This document shows, piece after piece, positions 21,607-32,900 of a stretch of DNA of 64,000 bases. Source of the DNA: Desulfomicrobium macestii (lineage in GTDB: Bacteria > Desulfobacterota > Desulfovibrionia > Desulfovibrionales > Desulfomicrobiaceae); assembly GCF_014873765.1 (NCBI RefSeq), contig NZ_JADBGG010000002.1:1-64000 (forward strand), in the 5' to 3' direction. Every line of letters starts with the position of its first letter. Position 1 is the stretch's first letter. The notes under the pieces are model-generated. The model worked only from the letters and a program-made list of their open reading frames with translations, was not told the DNA's origin and searched no databases. A program made the position numbers and the translations under genes.

Positions 21607-22098
21607 CTAGTCCTCGTCTTCCTGGTCGCCCGATTGATCGAAGATCGCGCAGGATTCTTCGGAGTCGTAGCGTACCACCAGCACCGAGCACTGCGCATGC
21701 CGGACGACCTTGGCCGTATTTGTGCCAAGAAGATAGTCCTGCAGTTTGAGGCGATGAGCAGGCATCACAATGAGGTCTGCGTTAATCTTCTCTGCCATGC
21801 GCAGGATTCTTCTATAGATTGAACCTTGTGCGACAAGATAGTTAACATCGATGTCGTCAGGAATGTAGACTCCAACCATCTCATGCAGCATTTCCTCGGC
21901 CTCGCCGACAATCTTGTCGCCTGCGTCTGGCGGAAAGTAGTTTGCGACAATGGGCATTCCCATGTCTGGAACTACTGTCAGGATGTACAGTTGAGCCTTG
22001 TATAGGCGGCAAAGTTCAATCGATCTCTCCAGGCCCATGCAGCGGGCGCGATCATCGGGTTCCTGCAAATCAATGGGGACAAGAATGCGTTTGTACAT
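21607..22098 (-). CDS. universal stress protein, UspA family
   Basis: A 163-residue UspA-fold protein: MYKRILVPIDL at the start, ADLIVMPAHR near residue 110, and VVRHAQCSVLVVRYD at the C-terminal strand. The nucleotide-binding G-x2-G-x9-G-S/T pattern is degraded (PAHRLKLQDYLLGTN), so ATP binding is doubtful. The C-terminus is very acidic. It lies 17 bases after the TRAP permease gene. In Halomonas a UspA protein, TeaD, is encoded with the ectoine TRAP transporter and down-regulates it; a similar regulator role here is inferred from position. Confidence 0.88.
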   Translation of the reverse strand: MYKRILVPIDLQEPDDRARCMGLERSIELCRLYKAQLYILTVVPDMGMPIVANYFPPDAGDKIVGEAEEMLHEMVGVYIPDDIDVNYLVAQGSIYRRILRMAEKINADLIVMPAHRLKLQDYLLGTNTAKVVRHAQCSVLVVRYDSEESCAIFDQSGDQEDED

Positions 22099-22115: not shown

Positions 22116-24329
22116 TTATGTTGTGACTTTTCTCTTTTTCTTGTTCTTTTTAACCGTCATTTGCCATGCGACAAGGAGGAAGAAAACGCAAACTCCCAAA
22201 ATCTGCATGCCCAGCCTGTCGAAAGGCAGGTAGGGTGCAAATGCTCCAGGGCGGAATGTCGTGGCGCATATCGCCAGCAGCAGAAGGCGTTCCCCCCAGT
22301 TGCAGCTTTTGACCAGCCAGCCCTGGATCGCCGAGGCGAACGCGAACATGGCGATCATCCCGGAAAAGAAGATCCACGCGATGTGCAGGTAGTCGTCGAG
22401 CCAGATGATGTCCCCGGTGGCGGTCACGCCGGAAATCATCAAGAGGTCCGTGTTGAAGAGAAAAATGAACGGCAGAATCGCGGTGCGCAGGTCGTAGGCG
22501 AAACCCTGCACACCGGTTTTAATTGGGTCGGAGCGTGCAATGGCCGCCCCCGCATAGGCCGCAAGTCCCACCGGCGGCGTGTCGTCGGCGAGAATGCCGA
22601 AATAGAACACGAACAGATGAGCCGCGATGATGGGGAAGACAAGCCCGGCGTCGGCGCCGAGCTGCACGATGACCGGTGCGGTCAGGGTGGCCATGATGAT
22701 GTAGTTGGCCGTGGTCGGCATGCCCATGCCCAGAATCAGGCTGGTAATGGCCGTGAAGATGAGCATCAGGACCACGTTGCCCATGGAGATGGTGTCGATG
22801 AGGGTGATGAAACGGCCGACAAGGCCGGTGATGGTCACCACTCCGACGATGATTCCGGCCGTGGCGGTGGCCACGCCCACGGAGATCATGTTGCGCGCGC
22901 CCATGATCAGGCCGTTCCAGATGTCGACAAGGCCCTGGCGGAAGGCCGCGACCATGAAGTGTCCGGTGTCCACGTCCGGGTCGAGGGTGCCGGCGCGGCG
23001 ATGGGCGCACATGGTCAGGTAGGCGATGATCGGACGCTGCACCAGCATGATCACGGTCAGACTCTCGATGGCCAGGAGCGCCGAGGTCACGGGCGAGCGA
23101 CGCACAATGACCAGGAAATAGATCAGCACCGCCAGCGGGATGATGAAATGGCAACCGCGCAGCAGCGTCTTGAAGAACGGAGGAAGTTGGGAACGGGGAA
23201 TGGCCTTGATGCCCAGCTTCATGGATTCTACGTGCACGACCCAGAACAGGGCGAGGTAGGAGATGATCGCGGGCAGGAATGCGGCCCGGACGACATCCAG
23301 ATATGGAATGCCTATTATCTCCGCCATGATGAAGGCCGCCGCGCCCATGACCGGAGGCATGAGCTGGCCGTTGGTGGACGCCGCGACCTCCACGGCCGCG
23401 GCTTTGTATGCCGGAAAGCCCACCTTCTTCATCAGCGGGATGGTGAAGGTGCCGGTGGTCACGGTGTTGGCGATGGAAGAGCCCGAGACCAGCCCTGTCA
23501 GGCCCGAAGCCAGAACAGCGGCCTTGGCCGGGCCGCCGCGAAAGGTGCCGAGCGCCGAAAAGGCCACGTCGATGAAATATTTTCCGCCGCCCGCGCGGTC
23601 GAGCAGTGCGCCGAAAAGGACGAAGAGGAAGACGAAATCCGTGGATACGCCCAGCGGCACTCCGAAAATGCCGGTGGTGGTCAGGTACATGTCGCTGATG
23701 ATGAAATCGAGCGGCACGCCGCGATGACGCAGCACCTCGGGCAAATAGGGCCCAAAGACCGTGTAGGCCAGAAAGACCGAGCCCAGTATGGTCAGCGCCG
23801 GACCAAGGGAGCGTCGGGCGGCTTCAAGCAGCAGCACGATCAGGATGATGCCCATCCAGATGTCCAAGGTGTTGGGCAGGCCCTGCCGATTGATGAGCTG
23901 GTCGTAGTCCCACCAGATGTAGAGCGCGCCTGACGTGGCCAGCGCCGCAAGGATCATGTCGTAGTAGGGAATGTAGGTGCGTATGGAGCGCCTGGCGAAA
24001 TTCGGGAGGACCTTCCGGGTCCAGTTGACCCACATGGGCGGAGTGTGCTGCTTGTAGGCCGGATAGGCCAGAAAGGCCAGACACACTGCAAACGCCAGAT
24101 GCCAGGCCCGGGCGATGTGTGAATTCAGGGGCTGGTAGGCCAGGAAAAGCTGGAAGGCGGACCAGCACAGGCACAGTAGCGTGATCGCTCCGGACGCGAA
24201 AAAATTAGAGGGTTCCCGCGCCCCTGCTTCGACCATGGCCACAAGGTCTTCGGCAGCTTTCTTCATGCTGGCGGAAGACTCCTGGCCGGGGGCGACGTTG
24301 TCTTGTTTGGGTGTTTCGTGTTCTGCCAT
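22116..24329 (-). CDS. TRAP transporter permease, fused 4TM and 12TM subunits
   Basis: A 737-residue polytopic membrane protein in which the small (DctQ-like) and large (DctM-like) TRAP permease subunits form one chain, the form that goes with TAXI-type binding proteins. The DctM portion has repeated GMGMPTTANYI, GLVGRFITLID and TNGQLMPPVMGAAAF elements. Transport is expected to be sodium- or proton-coupled uptake of a small carboxylate-containing or amino-acid-like solute delivered by the periplasmic partner. The cytoplasmic N-terminus (about 50 residues) is hydrophilic and acidic. It follows the binding-protein gene by 94 bases with a hairpin between. Confidence 0.92.
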   Translation of the reverse strand: MAEHETPKQDNVAPGQESSASMKKAAEDLVAMVEAGAREPSNFFASGAITLLCLCWSAFQLFLAYQPLNSHIARAWHLAFAVCLAFLAYPAYKQHTPPMWVNWTRKVLPNFARRSIRTYIPYYDMILAALATSGALYIWWDYDQLINRQGLPNTLDIWMGIILIVLLLEAARRSLGPALTILGSVFLAYTVFGPYLPEVLRHRGVPLDFIISDMYLTTTGIFGVPLGVSTDFVFLFVLFGALLDRAGGGKYFIDVAFSALGTFRGGPAKAAVLASGLTGLVSGSSIANTVTTGTFTIPLMKKVGFPAYKAAAVEVAASTNGQLMPPVMGAAAFIMAEIIGIPYLDVVRAAFLPAIISYLALFWVVHVESMKLGIKAIPRSQLPPFFKTLLRGCHFIIPLAVLIYFLVIVRRSPVTSALLAIESLTVIMLVQRPIIAYLTMCAHRRAGTLDPDVDTGHFMVAAFRQGLVDIWNGLIMGARNMISVGVATATAGIIVGVVTITGLVGRFITLIDTISMGNVVLMLIFTAITSLILGMGMPTTANYIIMATLTAPVIVQLGADAGLVFPIIAAHLFVFYFGILADDTPPVGLAAYAGAAIARSDPIKTGVQGFAYDLRTAILPFIFLFNTDLLMISGVTATGDIIWLDDYLHIAWIFFSGMIAMFAFASAIQGWLVKSCNWGERLLLLAICATTFRPGAFAPYLPFDRLGMQILGVCVFFLLVAWQMTVKKNKKKRKVTT

Positions 24330-24423: not shown

Positions 24424-25383
24424 CTACATCCAACCTTTTTCCTTGTAGTACTTGATCGCGCCGGGATGCAGCGGGGCGGAGAGGCCCTGCAGCATTTCCT
24501 TGGGGTTCAGGTTGCGGAAGGCGGCGTGGGACGCTTTGAGTTCGTCCAGGTTCTCGAAAACGGTCTTGACCATGTCGTAGACCACTTCCTCGGACACGGA
24601 CTCATTGGAGATGACGGTCGCGGTCACGGCGTAGGTCTCGACGTCCTTGTCCACACCCTTGTAGGTGCCGGCCGGGATCTTGGTCATGATGTAATAGGGA
24701 TGCTTGGCCACGAATTCCTTGATGCCGTCGGAATTGATGGGGACGATGTCAAGCTCGACGGACTGGGCAGGTTCTTCGACAGCGGCGCTGGGGTTGCCGA
24801 CGGTGAAGAAGAAGGCGTCGATCTTCTGGTCGACCAGGGCGCGGGAGGCTTCAGCCTGCTGCAGTGCTTCGGCGCTGAAATCCTTGTTGGGGTCCAGGCC
24901 GTAGATGCGCAGGACGTCTTCGGCATTGCCGCGCTGACCGGAGCCGGGGTTGCCGATGTTGATCCGCTTGCCCTTCATGTCCATGACGGTCTTGATGCCG
25001 GTGTCCTTGCGGGTGACCAGCAGAACGGTCTCGGGATGCATGCTGAACACGCTGCGCAGACCCTTGACGGGCTTTCCTTCCCAATCGGCGGCGCCGTTGA
25101 AGCCCTGCCAGTTGCGGTCGGACTGGGCCACCGCGAAGTCAAACGCGCCGCGGTCAATGGCATTGATGTTGAAAACCGAGCCGCCGGTGGGGCGACCGAT
25201 GTAGTTGTACTTGTCGGCTGCATGCTTGTTCATCATGTTGCTGAGCTGCAACGCGACCTGGTAGTAGACGCCGGTGATCGACGCTCCGCCGAAGAGAATG
25301 TCCTGCTTGGCCATTGCCTGGGGCGCAGTTACCGCCATTCCGAGTACGACCACAAGGGCGACCAGCCATTTTCTTCCAACCAT
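24424..25383 (-). CDS. TAXI-family TRAP transporter solute-binding protein
   Basis: A 319-residue periplasmic binding protein. The signal peptide spans about residues 1-26 (basic MVGRK, hydrophobic core, then QAMAKQD as a likely cleavage region). The mature protein begins ILFGGASITGVYYQVA, the TAXI signature, and contains GRPTGGSVFNINAI and VTRKDTGIKTVMDMKGKRINIGNPGSG. Known TAXI ligands include glutamate and glutamine; here the ligand is unknown. GGAGG five bases upstream supports the start at 25383, in preference to a longer frame. A strong promoter lies 63-91 bases upstream. Confidence 0.92.
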   Translation of the reverse strand: MVGRKWLVALVVVLGMAVTAPQAMAKQDILFGGASITGVYYQVALQLSNMMNKHAADKYNYIGRPTGGSVFNINAIDRGAFDFAVAQSDRNWQGFNGAADWEGKPVKGLRSVFSMHPETVLLVTRKDTGIKTVMDMKGKRINIGNPGSGQRGNAEDVLRIYGLDPNKDFSAEALQQAEASRALVDQKIDAFFFTVGNPSAAVEEPAQSVELDIVPINSDGIKEFVAKHPYYIMTKIPAGTYKGVDKDVETYAVTATVISNESVSEEVVYDMVKTVFENLDELKASHAAFRNLNPKEMLQGLSAPLHPGAIKYYKEKGWM

Positions 25384-25440
25384 AAGCACCTCCATCGATG
25401 AATTGTTGTGAATCAAGGATAAAAAATCCACTACGTTGTT

Positions 25441-25494: not shown

Positions 25495-26664
25495 TCATGC
25501 GCTTGTTGCATGATTCCAGATTGCTGCGATGGTTGCCGCCGTCAGCGCCGCTCTTTCGGACAACGTGTCTTTGAGAATATACTCCAGATCGCTGTGGTCC
25601 AGGTCTCCCACGGGTCCCAGCCCGTCGAGCACCGGCACGTCCAGACCGGCGATGAAATTGGCGTCGGACACGCCCGAGCGCAGCTCCTCGGGCAGGTCGT
25701 AACCGAAAATTTGCGCCTGCTCGCGGGCCATGGCGTAAAGCCGCCGGTTCCCTTCCGACTGGGGCATGGCCGGTCGTCCGGACTGTTCGATCAGGGTGGC
25801 CACGGTTCCGGGGATGGTGGTCCTTGAGACAATCCGGTTCAAGTCCTTTTCAAGGCGCTGTCTGCCCTGCGGGGTCAGGAACCGGGCATCGAGGGCCGCC
25901 GTGGCCAGTTCGGGCACGGTGTTGGGTCCGATTCCGCCCTCGATCAGGCCGACGTTGAGGGTGATGTCCCGGCCGTCGTTCAGTCCTTCAAGGGCGACGA
26001 TCATGTGCGCCAGCTCCAGGATGGCGCTGGCCTTGGCACCGCCCTTGGCCGCATGTCCGGCCTGTCCCTGCACGGTCAGAAGCATTCCGAGCCGACCCTT
26101 GCGGCCGGTGACCACATTCTTGTCCGCTCCGCCGCCTTCGAAGACCAGGGCGGCCAGGGCACCTTGCGCCTCTTTTTCAATCCAGGGGCGCGAAGCGGGG
26201 GAGCCGATCTCCTCGTCGGAATTGCACAGTACAGTGATCGGGATGTCGTCCAGAAGACCCAGGTGCTTAAGGGTTTTCAGGGCATGAACCGCGACAACGA
26301 GGCCTCCCTTCATGTCATAGACGCCCGGGCCGTGGCAGCGGTCGCCTTCCTCGCGAAATGCGGTGAAGGCCGTGTCGGCGGGAAAGACCGTGTCCATGTG
26401 TCCGACCAGCACGATGCCCTTGCGTCCCTTCGCGGCCGGAGCGGTCATGGCCTGGACCATGTTTCCGTGCTCCGTGAAGGGCAGGGTGCGCACGTCGGGC
26501 AAGACCTCGCCCAGGACCGTGGCCATTTCCCCCGCCATGCGGTCAAGGCCCGGCTTGTTGCGGCTGCCGCTCTGAATCTCGACCAGCCGCCGCAGCAGAT
26601 CAAGGGCATCCCTGCGGCGGGGGGCGAGATATGACTGGATTTTGTCGTGCATGGCCGGGATCAT
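25495..26664 (-). CDS. M20-family metallopeptidase, carboxypeptidase G2-like
   Basis: A 389-residue zinc peptidase. Metal-site motifs: GHMDTVFP (His and catalytic Asp), YDMKGG (bridging Asp), SDEEIGS (catalytic Glu-Glu), FEGGGADK, and a C-terminal GPVGDLDHSDLEYI carrying the final His. A dimerisation domain lies between about 180 and 290. Members cleave C-terminal glutamate, dipeptides or N-acyl amino acids in the cytoplasm. The start overlaps the KamA stop by four bases (ATGA), so it is coupled to the aminomutase; an internal ATG at 26652 is possible. Its position suggests it trims a product or import of this locus, which is inference. Confidence 0.9.
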   Translation of the reverse strand: MIPAMHDKIQSYLAPRRRDALDLLRRLVEIQSGSRNKPGLDRMAGEMATVLGEVLPDVRTLPFTEHGNMVQAMTAPAAKGRKGIVLVGHMDTVFPADTAFTAFREEGDRCHGPGVYDMKGGLVVAVHALKTLKHLGLLDDIPITVLCNSDEEIGSPASRPWIEKEAQGALAALVFEGGGADKNVVTGRKGRLGMLLTVQGQAGHAAKGGAKASAILELAHMIVALEGLNDGRDITLNVGLIEGGIGPNTVPELATAALDARFLTPQGRQRLEKDLNRIVSRTTIPGTVATLIEQSGRPAMPQSEGNRRLYAMAREQAQIFGYDLPEELRSGVSDANFIAGLDVPVLDGLGPVGDLDHSDLEYILKDTLSERAALTAATIAAIWNHATSA

Positions 26665-28223
26665 TTTTCGTACTTGGCGAAGCCGAAGTCCTGGCGGGCG
26701 TATTCTTGCGGATCGGGATCTGGGTATATAACCTGCTCGCCGCTCCAGGGCTTTTGCATCTTCACGTGGCCTTGCGCGTGTTCGAGCACGTTGGTGCGGT
26801 GCAATGGGATCTTGCCCCCTGCGGTGGCGATGTAGCGTGGAATGGCGTCACCGGAGATGTTGCCGTACATGCTCTCGATGATGCCCTGTCCCACAGCCAC
26901 GGGCACGCGCAAATGCATGAACTGCGGGTTGCGGTAGCTGCAGTTGAAGACATAGTAGGGGCGGACATAGGCTTCCTGGATGGTCTCGCACAGCTTCCAC
27001 ATCTTGACGCTGGTGTCGTTGATGCCTTTCAAGAGCACGGCCTGATTCATGACTGCCGCCACGCGTTTGGAGATGGCCTTGAACGCGGCCTTCGAGACCG
27101 GCGTGATCTCCTGGGCGGTGTTGATCTGCGTGACCACGCGCAGGGGCTTCCTGTCGCTGCTGGCCTCCAGAATATCCAGAAGTTCGTCGTCGATGCGCTG
27201 CGGCGTGGTCACGGGGATGCGTGTGCCGAGCCGTTTCATGCGCACGTGATCGATGGCGTCGAGTTCGCCCAGGAGCCACTTGAGCATGCTGTTGGGCAGG
27301 ACCAGGCTGTCGCCGCCGGTCACAAGCACGTCACGGATTTCGGGGTTGGCGCGGATGTACTGAAGGGCCTCGCCGTAGGCTTCCTTGCCGTAGAGGCGGT
27401 CCTTGGCGCCGATGTGGGCGATGCGCAGGCAATGGGTGCAGTACATGGCGCACATGTTGGTGGCCTTGATGGTCACCACTCTGGGATAAAACTGGTCGAT
27501 GAGCCGGGCCGGGGAATGGTCCGCTGCCACGGGAGGGATCTCGACGCCGGCGTTGTCGATCATCTCTCCGGTAGGCACGGACTGCAAAAGGACCGGGTCG
27601 TTGATCTGGCCAGGGAGGATCAGGCTCGCGTAATAGGGGGTGAGGCGCATGCGGTAGGTCTTGGTGACCCGCAGCACGTCCTGCACGGCCTTGGCGGGCA
27701 GATCGATCACTTTGGACAGGGTCTCGACGGATTCGATGGCATGACGAAGCTGGCCGGAATAGGAGTTCCAGTCGTCTTCGCTCATGCCCAGGACTTTTCT
27801 GATGCGCGCCTGGTTCTCGAGCATCCGGTCCCAGACTTCGATGCCGCTCGGGGCCTCCCTGGGGTGCCGGTCCAGATATTCGGCGACCCGGTCCTGGGCG
27901 GCATCGACGATGGCCAGGGCCTTGCCGACGCGGCCGCCCACAGTGACCCGATGCTCGTCGATCTGTTCATGCTTCACGGCCAGGGCCGTGAGGGCGTCTC
28001 GTGTCATATCCAACTGTTCCGGAGTCCAGCCGCGGTCGTCATGGAATTTTTCCAGCGTGGCAAAAAGGGCGACGATGGGACCGGTCAGCGTTTCGGTTTC
28101 GGCCTGCCTGAAAAGTTCGGCAATGGTCTGACGCTCTTCATCCGATGGCGCGGCGTCATTTTTCACGGTGAACAGTTTTTCAAAGAGATCCGTCGTAAAC
28201 GTGTCCAGGGCATTGATGCTCAT
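26661..28223 (-). CDS. KamA-family radical SAM aminomutase-like protein
   Basis: A 520-residue protein related to lysine 2,3-aminomutase, with about 130 extra N-terminal residues. The [4Fe-4S] motif is CAMYCTHC at 258-265. Arg267 aligns with the carboxylate-binding arginine, and Lys471 in AGGK with the PLP lysine, so it should be a PLP- and SAM-dependent radical enzyme moving an amino group between adjacent carbons. The two aspartates that bind the lysine epsilon-amine align with Ser429 and Ala466, so lysine is unlikely; the glutamate-type pattern is also absent. Start and stop overlap neighbouring genes by 1 and 4 bases. Confidence 0.88.
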   Translation of the reverse strand: MSINALDTFTTDLFEKLFTVKNDAAPSDEERQTIAELFRQAETETLTGPIVALFATLEKFHDDRGWTPEQLDMTRDALTALAVKHEQIDEHRVTVGGRVGKALAIVDAAQDRVAEYLDRHPREAPSGIEVWDRMLENQARIRKVLGMSEDDWNSYSGQLRHAIESVETLSKVIDLPAKAVQDVLRVTKTYRMRLTPYYASLILPGQINDPVLLQSVPTGEMIDNAGVEIPPVAADHSPARLIDQFYPRVVTIKATNMCAMYCTHCLRIAHIGAKDRLYGKEAYGEALQYIRANPEIRDVLVTGGDSLVLPNSMLKWLLGELDAIDHVRMKRLGTRIPVTTPQRIDDELLDILEASSDRKPLRVVTQINTAQEITPVSKAAFKAISKRVAAVMNQAVLLKGINDTSVKMWKLCETIQEAYVRPYYVFNCSYRNPQFMHLRVPVAVGQGIIESMYGNISGDAIPRYIATAGGKIPLHRTNVLEHAQGHVKMQKPWSGEQVIYPDPDPQEYARQDFGFAKYEK

Positions 28224-29647
28224 TACTTGTCATCCTCGCTTGATTCCTGTGTTTGTGAGTGTTTGCGGATGGAGTCGTTCAGTTGCTCGATGCCCAGGCG
28301 AATGTCTTCATCGAGCAGGCAGCGGTCTCGGGCCACGGCCACGACCCTGCCCAGAAACGTGCCGGGCATGACGGCCTGCTTGCCGCCGACGTGTTCGACC
28401 ACGATCACGCCGTGCTCCTGGCCGTTGCTGACGATCTGGCGAAAGAGGGTCCGCTCGTCCTCGTCCACGGGGACGATGTGCTCGGTTTCGGCCTCGTGTT
28501 CGAGCTTGAAGTTGTAGGTCCGCCAGCAGATTCCCTTCAGGGCTTCCTTGATCTCCATCTTGTTGTCCGGGAAGCGGTCGAACATCACGGCGTGATATTC
28601 CAGTTCCAGCAGGCCCGGAGTCTCGGGCGGCAGGGCGTTCTCAAGGGTGCAGCACATCTCCATGGTCGTGCCCTGCTTGCGGGCGTTGACCTCCACGAAA
28701 AATATCCGGCCCTGGTCGTCGACGATGTAGTCGCATCCGAAGATACCGCGATAGCCGCCGCGTCCCATGACCTGGCCTATCCTGCGCGTGATCTCGCGCA
28801 GCTCCTGCTGCGTGGTTTCGGGTTGCTCGGAAGGAAAGGTCGATCCGCGAAACTTGTTGCCATCGTATATTTCCTGGTCGGCGGTGGCCGCGATGAACAC
28901 GTCCTGGGCGTTGGCCACGATCCCCAAAACCGTGGGGTCGGCCACGTGCGGGATGTAGCGGCTGATGAAGAACTTGCCCCGCAGATGCGCGGTCTTGGTC
29001 TCGATCTCTTCCTGCGAGCGGGCGACAAAGCTGTTCACTCCGGCCGCCGAATAGGGCTGGCTGACAAATATGCCGTCCGGCCACTCTTCCCAGAGCTCGC
29101 GGGCCGTATCCATCATGTCCTGCGCATCCTGGCAGACGCGATAGTTGATCAGCGGGGCGACGTCTTTCAGGCGTTGCAGCTGGTAGAGCTTGTTGTTCCA
29201 GATGTTGGCGATGTGGCCGCTGGGCCCGAGGATGCGCACGCCGGGAATGAGCGCCAGGGTCAGTTCGGGCACGGATTCGAAGACGTGGATGAAGACATGC
29301 CCCTGCTTGTCCAGAAGCTGGCGGATCAGCTCATTGACCGTGTCCGATGCGGAGACCAGGGAGGCAAAGGTCCGTGGCGGGATGCGGAAGCTGACCTTGC
29401 GGCCCTTGGCCCGGAAAAGCTCCCTGGCCATGGGGTTTATGACCATGGTGTTCTTGTGCGGGTAGGATTCGAGCACATCCGGCAGGATGGAAATGAAGTC
29501 GAAAGGCTGACCGTGAATCTTGGAGAGAGTCTCCTTGAAGAATTGGTTCAGGCAGTCCGTTTTTATTTCGCCGATATACAGGAAATAAAACGTGTCCGGG
29601 TCAAGTTTGATGTCCGAAAAGAGGATGTCCTCGTCTTCCATGAGCAT
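28223..29647 (-). CDS. ATP-grasp ligase-like protein
   Basis: A 474-residue protein with an ATP-grasp domain in its middle and C-terminal parts. Visible are a central domain from about residue 145 (HIANIWNNKLYQLQ), GKFFISRYIP, and FVEVNARKQGTTMEM near residue 330, whose E-x-N is the magnesium-binding pair of the fold. ATP-grasp enzymes join a carboxylate to an amine or thiol via an acylphosphate. The start at 29647 has GGAGG seven bases upstream; MEDED at 29641 is an alternative. The stop overlaps the aminomutase start (TAATG), making it the first gene of a three-gene unit. Substrate unknown. Confidence 0.82.
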   Translation of the reverse strand: MLMEDEDILFSDIKLDPDTFYFLYIGEIKTDCLNQFFKETLSKIHGQPFDFISILPDVLESYPHKNTMVINPMARELFRAKGRKVSFRIPPRTFASLVSASDTVNELIRQLLDKQGHVFIHVFESVPELTLALIPGVRILGPSGHIANIWNNKLYQLQRLKDVAPLINYRVCQDAQDMMDTARELWEEWPDGIFVSQPYSAAGVNSFVARSQEEIETKTAHLRGKFFISRYIPHVADPTVLGIVANAQDVFIAATADQEIYDGNKFRGSTFPSEQPETTQQELREITRRIGQVMGRGGYRGIFGCDYIVDDQGRIFFVEVNARKQGTTMEMCCTLENALPPETPGLLELEYHAVMFDRFPDNKMEIKEALKGICWRTYNFKLEHEAETEHIVPVDEDERTLFRQIVSNGQEHGVIVVEHVGGKQAVMPGTFLGRVVAVARDRCLLDEDIRLGIEQLNDSIRKHSQTQESSEDDK

Positions 29648-29855
29648 AACCGCGCCTCCACGCAACAGAATTGAGCCCGTCAACGCCATTGTCGCGGGCA
29701 TTTGTTCCGCTGGCCCTAACGATTGATTCCGCAAACCGCAATTCTTTGCTTGGACCTGTGCAAAGCCGCGTCCGGACTGCGGTTCGCGGCTCCGGAATTT
29801 CGGCCGATCGCATGCCGCGCGCTGATTCTGCGGCGTTTTCCCTGCGTCCTGCCGT

Positions 29856-31413: not shown

Positions 31414-32310
31414 ATGAAATCAATTGACTGCAATGACGACAAGGCACTGCTCAATACGGGCCTGGCCCGGATGTTCAAGGGCGGGGTGATCATGGACGTG
31501 ATCAACGCGGAACAGGCCCGCATTGCCGAAGAGGCCGGGGCCTGCGCGGTCATGGCCCTGGAACGGGTTCCCGCCGACATCCGCGCCTGCGGCGGCGTGG
31601 CCCGCATGTCCGACCCGGCCATGATCCGCGAGATCATGGCCAGTGTCTCCATCCCGGTCATGGCCAAGTGCCGCATCGGCCATTTCATGGAGGCCCGCAT
31701 CCTCGAAGCCGTGGGCGTGGACTACATCGACGAGAGCGAGGTCCTGACTCCGGCGGATGAGGAATTCCATATCGACAAGAATGCGTTCAAGGTGCCCTTT
31801 GTCTGCGGATGCCGCAATCTGGGCGAGGCCCTGCGCCGCGTTGCCGAGGGCGCGGCCATGATTCGCACCAAGGGCGAGGCGGGCACGGGGGACGTGGTCG
31901 AGGCCGTGCGCCATGCCCGGACCGTGCAAAGCCAGATCAGGCAGGTGCAGGGCATGCCCCTCGAAGAGCTGGCCACGTATGCCAAGAATATCGGTGCGTC
32001 CCTGGAACTTCTGCGTCAGGTGCGTGAACTGGGGCGGCTGCCCGTGGTCAATTTCGCTGCCGGAGGAGTGGCCACGCCGGCCGATGCCGCGCTGATGATG
32101 CAGCTTGGCATGGACGGAGTTTTCGTTGGGTCGGGGATCTTCAAGAGCGGCGATCCGGCCAAAAGAGCGCGGGCCATCGTGCAGGCGGTGACTCATTTCG
32201 ACGATCCGTCCATTCTGGCCCGGGTCAGCGAAAATCTGGGCGAGGCCATGTCCGGCATCGCGGTTCGTTCCCTGGACGCCGCGCAGCAGTTCGCGGGCCG
32301 GGGCTGGTGA
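31414..32310 (+). CDS. pdxS: pyridoxal 5'-phosphate synthase subunit PdxS
   Basis: A 298-residue PdxS (298 is a near-typical length). It condenses ribose 5-phosphate, glyceraldehyde 3-phosphate and ammonia into PLP. Lys85 in [10 protein letters not shown] matches the substrate-binding lysine, Asp28 in [11 protein letters not shown] the catalytic Asp, and [17 protein letters not shown] the phosphate site; [14 protein letters not shown] is the C-terminal signature. Ammonia comes from PdxT, whose start overlaps this stop by one base. AGGAGG precedes the ATG. PLP made here serves several genes in the window (KamA-family, glyA). Confidence 0.98.
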
Positions 32311-32900
32311 TGCGCGTCGGCATCCTTGCCCTGCAGGGCGCTTTCGCCGAGCATGTCGAAATGCTCGAAACGCTGGGGACGCGGGCCGAACTGGTCCGCT
32401 CTTGCGCCCATCTGGAAGGGCTGGACGGGCTCATTCTGCCCGGCGGAGAGAGCACCAGCATGCGGCGCCTTGCAGGACTGTCCGGGCTTGACGTCGCCTT
32501 GCGCGATTTTGGGGCAAGCCGTCCGGTCTGGGGCGTCTGCGCGGGACTCATTCTGCTGGCCGCCAGGGTCGAGGGCGAGGAGCCTTTTCTGGGGCTCATG
32601 GACATGGGGGTCGCGCGCAATGCCTACGGCCGCCAGCAGGAGAGTTTCGTGTCAGGTTTGCGCGTTGACGGGCTGCCGGATTCCCGGCCCTACCCCGGCG
32701 TGTTCATCCGCGCTCCGAGGGTGCTCGAAACCGGTCCGGGAGTGACGGTCCTGGGCCGCCTTGGAGATGCCCCGGTGGCCTTGCGCCAGGGCCATCTGAT
32801 GGCCACGGCCTTTCACCCGGAAATGACCGGGGACGGTCGCGTGCATGCCTGTTTTCTGGATTTGTGCGCGGATCGGATGCAGGGACGTCTGGCCGGATGA
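32310..32900 (+). CDS. pdxT: pyridoxal 5'-phosphate synthase glutaminase subunit PdxT
   Basis: A 196-residue class I glutamine amidotransferase that supplies ammonia to PdxS. Nucleophile Cys77 is in GVCAGL, with His and Glu in FHPEM near the C-terminus; LPGGESTS at residues 43-50 is the family signature. An ATG at 32310 overlaps the pdxS stop (TGATG); a GTG at 32307 is an alternative start. A terminator follows. Confidence 0.97.
   Translation: MRVGILALQGAFAEHVEMLETLGTRAELVRSCAHLEGLDGLILPGGESTSMRRLAGLSGLDVALRDFGASRPVWGVCAGLILLAARVEGEEPFLGLMDMGVARNAYGRQQESFVSGLRVDGLPDSRPYPGVFIRAPRVLETGPGVTVLGRLGDAPVALRQGHLMATAFHPEMTGDGRVHACFLDLCADRMQGRLAG

Follow-up and report, generated by a model that had tools for sequence, protein, structure and literature searches.

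To our knowledge, few substrates have been described for the radical SAM 2,3-aminomutases, namely lysine, glutamate, arginine and the EF-P-related lysine. The protein analysed here, a member of the KamA family, shares with the lysine 2,3-aminomutase of C. subterminale (LAM; AblA/KamA, structure 2a5h) the fold (Z 34), the Cx3CxxC motif, R134 and the PLP lysine K337. However, it has S429 and T467 in place of D293 and D330, about 135 more N-terminal residues and, in its gene context, ATP-grasp and M20 partners instead of AblB. With glutamate 2,3-aminomutase (TIGR04368), which gives its best score among the curated models, it also shares the region before the core (residues 110-147), but the score is 340.8 against a cut-off of 650 bits and the Lys/Asn pair of that enzyme is absent. 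The arginine 2,3-aminomutase BlsG (TIGR04468) has in common with it the KamA core and a Thr at the D330 position; BlsG retains an Asp at the D293 position, however, and the protein scores 232.7 against 600 bits with the BlsG model.

Two further systems are comparable with respect to the ligase encoded next to it. BesA is a propargylglycine-glutamate ligase, and in its pathway (gamma-Glu-propargylglycine) ligation to a gamma-glutamyl dipeptide precedes modification. BesA is the nearest characterised relative of the ATP-grasp partner, but the similarity is weak (33 vs 750 bits) and the BesA pathway has no KamA. In PylB/PylC, a radical SAM isomerase is likewise paired with an ATP-grasp amino-acid ligase, and the fold matches of the ligase include PylC; PylB, however, is not a KamA enzyme and works without PLP, and no M20 hydrolase is found there.

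A KamA-family protein outside the substrate-defined subfamilies tested

The window (the whole stretch of DNA analysed, 64,000 nucleotides from Desulfomicrobium macestii) contains the following genes in the same-strand order ATP-grasp, KamA, M20, TAXI, TRAP fused permease and universal stress protein:

28223..29734, minus strand: ATP-grasp amino-acid ligase, true start near 29647 suggested by homologues; 1-bp overlap of its stop with the start of KamA (TAATG)
26661..28223, minus strand: KamA-family radical SAM/PLP aminomutase, 520 aa; single open frame, family profile, sequence and fold match to 2a5h
25495..26664, minus strand: M20 metallohydrolase, carboxypeptidase-G2-like, 389 aa; 4-bp overlap of its start with the stop of KamA (ATGA)
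24424..25431, minus strand: TAXI-type TRAP solute-binding protein (profile matches)
22116..24329, minus strand: TRAP fused permease (profile matches)
21607..22098, minus strand: universal stress protein, following the last transporter gene (profile match)

The original prediction placed a KamA-family gene at 26661-28223 and gave no strand. The frame was found on the minus strand, with its ATG at 28223, its stop at 26661 and 520 uninterrupted codons. The product passed the model for KamA family radical SAM proteins, TIGR00238 (229.5 bits, cut-off 199.2). In contrast, it failed the equivalog models for glutamate and arginine 2,3-aminomutase, with the scores given above, and likewise those for lysine 2,3-aminomutase (TIGR03820, 286 vs 525.4 bits) and EpmB (TIGR03821, 178.2 vs 369.3 bits). 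By sequence, 2a5h was the only clear solved relative (E 1.6e-64). An AlphaFold model built from a 40-sequence alignment (mean pLDDT 82.6, the radical SAM loop being low) matched 2a5h with a Z of 34.0 and an rmsd of 2.4 Å over 322 aligned residues. Sequence, motif and fold thus all place the 520-aa protein in the KamA family, and it lies outside every substrate-defined subfamily among those tested. A 2,3-aminomutase activity is predicted from the family, the fold and the cofactor residues.

Cofactor residues and substrate pocket

Three segments of the protein were located by alignment:

27429..27452, minus strand: Cx3CxxC [4Fe-4S] motif, C258/C262/C265 (LAM 125/129/132), followed by R267 (LAM R134)
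26928..26939, minus strand: S429-Y430-R431-N432, with S429 at the LAM D293 position, then a one-residue insertion and an invariant Arg
26811..26837, minus strand: R463-Y-I-A-T467-A-G-G-K471, with T467 at the LAM D330 position and K471 at the PLP-lysine position

For residue mapping, 59 KamA proteins were aligned together and the protein was also aligned pairwise to 2a5h; the two results agreed. LAM C125, C129, C132, R134 and K337 correspond to C258, C262, C265, R267 and K471 in the alignment of the 59 proteins, confirming that the iron-sulfur cysteines, the arginine and the PLP lysine are retained, as had been claimed. For the two substrate positions, Ser429 and Ala466 had been proposed as the counterparts of D293 and D330. 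The first was right, but the second was off by one: D330 falls on T467, gap-free in both alignments. The loss of both aspartates stands.

According to SFLD, the lysine enzymes have two aspartates at these two substrate positions and the glutamate enzymes have Lys and Asn (PMC3965090). The Asp293/Asp330 pair is missing here, S429 and T467 being found instead. The Lys/Asn pair is also missing at the LAM-equivalent positions, as mapped through the LAM alignment; a search of 61 related genomes and 8 others gave no hit over the TIGR04368 cut-off that could have served as a true glutamate 2,3-aminomutase for comparison. The earlier claim that neither pattern is present is borne out by the S429/T467 alignment.

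Among 77 aligned sequences of the clade, S429, R431, N432, R463, I465, A468 and K471 are invariant, as are C258, C262, C265 and R267, and T467 is kept in 75. The pocket motif NCS-Y-RN...PRYIATAGGK is unchanging among the clade homologues, and the one-residue insertion that sets R431 after S429 is absent from every other KamA group aligned. Because S429, R431, R463, K471 and the others are invariant and T467 nearly so, the pocket is a maintained one and not a product of decay. A Ser/Thr pair together with invariant R431 and R463 would suit a side chain that is uncharged or acidic, not cationic.

A simple possibility is that the enzyme is still a lysine 2,3-aminomutase which binds lysine in another way, as the KamA fold and the cofactor residues are retained. 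However, both epsilon-amine aspartates are replaced throughout the clade, TIGR03820 is far below its cut-off and a canonical AblA is encoded in the same genome, and we regard this possibility as extremely improbable. That the protein works neither as a lysine nor as a canonical glutamate 2,3-aminomutase is supported by the wide margin by which every curated equivalog model is missed, by the deviating pocket, by the separate clade and by the presence of an AblA in the same genome. The original reading, in which some other alpha- or beta-amino acid is the substrate, is plausible but lacks precision.

The extra N-terminal region

27822..28223, minus strand: helical N-terminal extension, residues 1-134, in which H85, DEH 89-91 and GGR 96-98 are conserved (prediction and clade alignment)

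An extra, unassigned N-terminal region of about 130 residues had also been noted. The region is real, LAM residue 11 being aligned with residue 146 of the KamA protein, and comparison with Pfam and the PDB gave no convincing match, only chance-level ones to designed helical repeats and coiled coils. Its length has to be corrected, however: the TIGR04368 profile covers about 35 of its residues (110-147), so about 110 are truly extra. The region is all-helical in the prediction, and E90, H91, V93 and GGR96-98 are conserved in the clade. It is a matter of speculation that the EH/GGR motif of these helices could extend to the far end of a longer substrate.

The predicted operon and its partner genes

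The six genes listed above are predicted to form one operon, within which the ATP-grasp, KamA and M20 genes, with their TAATG and ATGA overlaps, are probably translationally coupled. At 54 of the 66 testable loci KamA is immediately preceded by the ATP-grasp gene, and at no fewer than 51 of the 68 loci with enough flank it is immediately followed by the M20 gene; TRAP/TAXI genes are near KamA in only 21 of 34 loci with enough flank. Among 150 genomes of the order, the ATP-grasp family occurs in 36, nearly the same ones as KamA (34). No Rfam families were found near the operon, promoter and terminator scans of it gave results no better than shuffles, and in the collection of literature searched no paper was found that describes an operon of KamA and ATP-grasp genes or beta-glutamate in sulfate-reducing bacteria. 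About 1.7 kb from this operon, which encodes a PLP enzyme, pdxS and a pdxT-like gene (PLP synthase) are present at 31414-32900 on the plus strand.

The ATP-grasp protein passed PF02655 (28.6 vs 23.2 bits), and its model (pLDDT 92.2) has a clear ATP-grasp fold with structure matches at Z ~25, PylC included. BesA (8yi6) is the nearest characterised ligase by sequence, but the BesA equivalog was failed (33.3 vs 750 bits), the match being confined to some 100 residues in the ATP-binding part. The M20 protein passed PF01546 (97.5 vs 24.6 bits), has the conserved metal-site motifs GHxDT, GPGVxDMKG, EE and DHS, and is nearest to carboxypeptidase G2 (E 4.3e-35), an enzyme that removes C-terminal glutamate. 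Regulators of the GntR/FCD type were found in 10 loci, and sigma-54 activators in two (L031, L042). The neighbouring genes, which were missed originally, carry most of the functional information and suggest that the substrate or the product is amide-linked, in the manner of a dipeptide.

Carnosine is made by a synthase of the ATP-grasp type, and the carnosinases belong to M20. An alanine 2,3-aminomutase or similar enzyme could supply beta-alanine for a carnosine-like dipeptide made by the ATP-grasp protein, with the M20 protein as carnosinase, and the loss of charged side-chain ligands would suit so small a substrate. However, invariant Arg residues lie near the pocket, the GGT-family replacement described below does not fit, and the nearest M20 enzyme is carboxypeptidase G2 and not a carnosinase. 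This explanation is very unlikely.

The main rival to an amide-linked substrate is free glutamate: the protein may be a 2,3-aminomutase of glutamate (or aspartate) whose carboxylate site has been rebuilt, with R431, shifted by two residues together with the one-residue insertion, taking the place of the Lys in the known glutamate enzymes. The free beta-amino acid would then be joined to a second amino acid in a dipeptide solute, which the M20 protein would degrade. The invariance of R431 and R463, the rank of TIGR04368 as best-scoring curated model and an importer of the TAXI type linked to glutamate (PMC5812351) all agree with this proposal, and the ligase and the hydrolase fit the making and breaking of a dipeptide. 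On the other hand, TIGR04368 is far below its cut-off (340.8 vs 650), the Lys/Asn pattern is absent and only putatively does R431 reach the pocket. We consider free glutamate a somewhat unlikely substrate.

Loci without the ATP-grasp gene

Twelve testable loci have no ATP-grasp gene directly upstream of KamA. One of them (L039) has an ATP-grasp gene nearby on the opposite strand; in the other eleven genomes, no ATP-grasp relative was found at E 1e-20 in a whole-genome search. In seven of the eleven (L031, L041, L042, L045, L054, L072 and L076), a GGT-family gene without a signal peptide is located at KamA, and most of these seven loci also have a Dpp/Gsi-type peptide ABC transporter. The GGT-family enzymes score just below TIGR00066 (311-354 vs 357.85 bits), with the TTH nucleophile motif intact and the SS motif mostly kept. 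The position of E. coli GGT R114, which we take to be the alpha-carboxylate residue, is apparently Ser in them. Because of this change their ordinary gamma-glutamyl specificity is uncertain, and they may act on something other than ordinary gamma-glutamyl groups. Four loci (L048, L077, L081 and L083) have neither ligase nor GGT.

One genus of the same order has three genomes (G050, G060, G359) with a more distant ATP-grasp relative but without this KamA. In the two inspected (G050 and G060), it adjoins a B12-binding radical SAM enzyme with DUF4070 (L124 7530-12957, L125 6258-9397), L124 also having a glycosyltransferase; this is possibly another ligase/radical SAM pair. The theme shared by these various loci would be amide chemistry beside a radical SAM enzyme.

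Distribution of the clade and co-occurrence with AblA

In species genomes, 80 loci were found, whose proteins are with few exceptions 61-87% identical over most of their length. The hosts are mostly Desulfobacterota, with Spirochaetota, SAR324 and a few others, and many have names or sources indicating marine, saline or soda-lake habitats. A phylogeny of KamA clades had been proposed along with the original prediction; in a FastTree tree of the KamA core the protein falls in a separate, monophyletic clade with a support of 1.0, apart from AblA, BlsG and the other KamA types. The distribution of the clade is patchy, since the family was present in only 3 of 297 genomes of an even phylum sample.

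The host genome encodes three other KamA proteins, one of which is a true AblA (775 vs 525.4 bits). AblA is the first enzyme of the N-epsilon-acetyl-beta-lysine solute pathway. Among the 150 genomes of the order, the KamA family is present in 34 and AblA above cut-off in 49, with 22 shared, i.e. AblA occurs in 22 of 34 carriers of the KamA clade and in 27 of 116 non-carriers (Fisher p 1.6e-5, kinship not corrected). Within the genus the association is 7/7 vs 1/9 (p 0.0014, again uncorrected for kinship). As kinship was left uncorrected, this co-occurrence gives only a hint of a link between the KamA family and salt adaptation. Ectoine synthase was considered as a second salt marker and proved uninformative, being almost absent from the order.

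These data also bear on whether the genes serve uptake and breakdown, with a foreign beta-amino acid or peptide being imported (by TRAP or a peptide ABC transporter) and cut, and KamA running in the beta-to-alpha direction into central metabolism. Importers adjoin the cluster in many loci, the GGT loci are partnered by a peptide importer and hydrolases, and regulators of the GntR/FCD type (10 loci), like the sigma-54 activators, typically control catabolic genes. An ATP-consuming ligase, however, would be an odd catabolic partner, and the AblA correlation suggests salt adaptation. A role of this kind seems quite unlikely.

Proposed reaction and its significance

KamA probably makes an unrecognised beta-amino acid compound, not beta-lysine, because its pocket is different and its partner enzymes make and cut peptide bonds. 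Tentatively, and with rather low confidence, we prefer the explanation that it is a 2,3-aminomutase acting on an amide-linked amino acid of the glutamate family, the ligase making the amide and the hydrolase cutting it. A glutamate-family substrate bearing an amide or a further carboxylate would fit the residues of the pocket. A gamma-glutamyl amide or dipeptide is favoured, because the pocket lacks the lysine and glutamate charge patterns but has an invariant Arg, and a ligase and a carboxypeptidase-like hydrolase are encoded alongside.

We infer a substrate class, an order and direction of steps and a physiological role as follows. The ATP-grasp enzyme would form the amide using ATP. KamA, with SAM, the [4Fe-4S] cluster and PLP, would rearrange the free alpha-amino end of this amide by shifting the amino group between C2 and C3 of the glutamate-family amino acid, whose side chain would have no free cation and would probably be amide-linked (a gamma-glutamyl amide or dipeptide, or glutamine-like). 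The M20 hydrolase would cut the amide again, freeing or recycling the beta-amino acid, and the TAXI-TRAP system would bring in the product or its precursor. The product may act as a salt-stress solute. In its most specific form, i.e. an amide-linked gamma-glutamyl substrate made by the ATP-grasp enzyme and cut by the M20 enzyme, yielding an unrecognised beta-glutamyl salt-stress solute of marine anaerobes, the proposal is unlikely.

The amide-linked substrate is favoured by the cofactor residues, the Z 34 fold, the Ser/Thr and Arg of the pocket, the coupled genes and their co-distribution, and the likeness of the partners to BesA and carboxypeptidase G2. In addition, the seven genomes without ATP-grasp have a cytosolic GGT-family enzyme and mostly a peptide ABC transporter; the AblA correlation and the description of a TAXI protein as a glutamate/glutamine binder (PMC5812351) count in the same direction. 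Against it, the BesA similarity is weak and leaves a gamma-glutamyl specificity unfixed, R114 is changed in the GGT-family enzymes, four loci lack both ligase and GGT, and TRAP/TAXI genes occur in only 21 of 34 loci with enough flank. Moreover, the GntR/FCD and sigma-54 regulators would also suit a catabolic role, and that R431 and R463 face the pocket is an assumption from the alignment.

A large clade whose pocket is invariant but different, which is spread among marine sulfate-reducing bacteria and spirochaetes and whose genes accompany those for a ligase and a hydrolase, points to an undescribed beta-amino acid pathway. Such a pathway would extend the set of beta-amino acid biocatalysts and inform on the solutes or peptides of anoxic marine sediments. 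Genes of this kind should not be annotated as lysine 2,3-aminomutase.

Related KamA genes

A shorter KamA paralogue (about 380 aa, pocket motif FICRPTVGN) lies divergently beside an ATP-grasp gene at four loci (L029 189-1337, L062 124-1425, L067 4968-6095 and L127 13448-14557). It was considered as a part of the system, and none is present in this window. At G391:C1:1518522-1520053 and L016 7974-9566 the gene of the KamA clade is split into two open frames, by a frameshift, a stop or a sequencing error. The host genome and others also encode a third KamA type of about 600-650 aa (L004 940-2895, L040 4013-5812), whose N-terminus is long and whose pocket (FAPKA / FNTKG) differs strongly.
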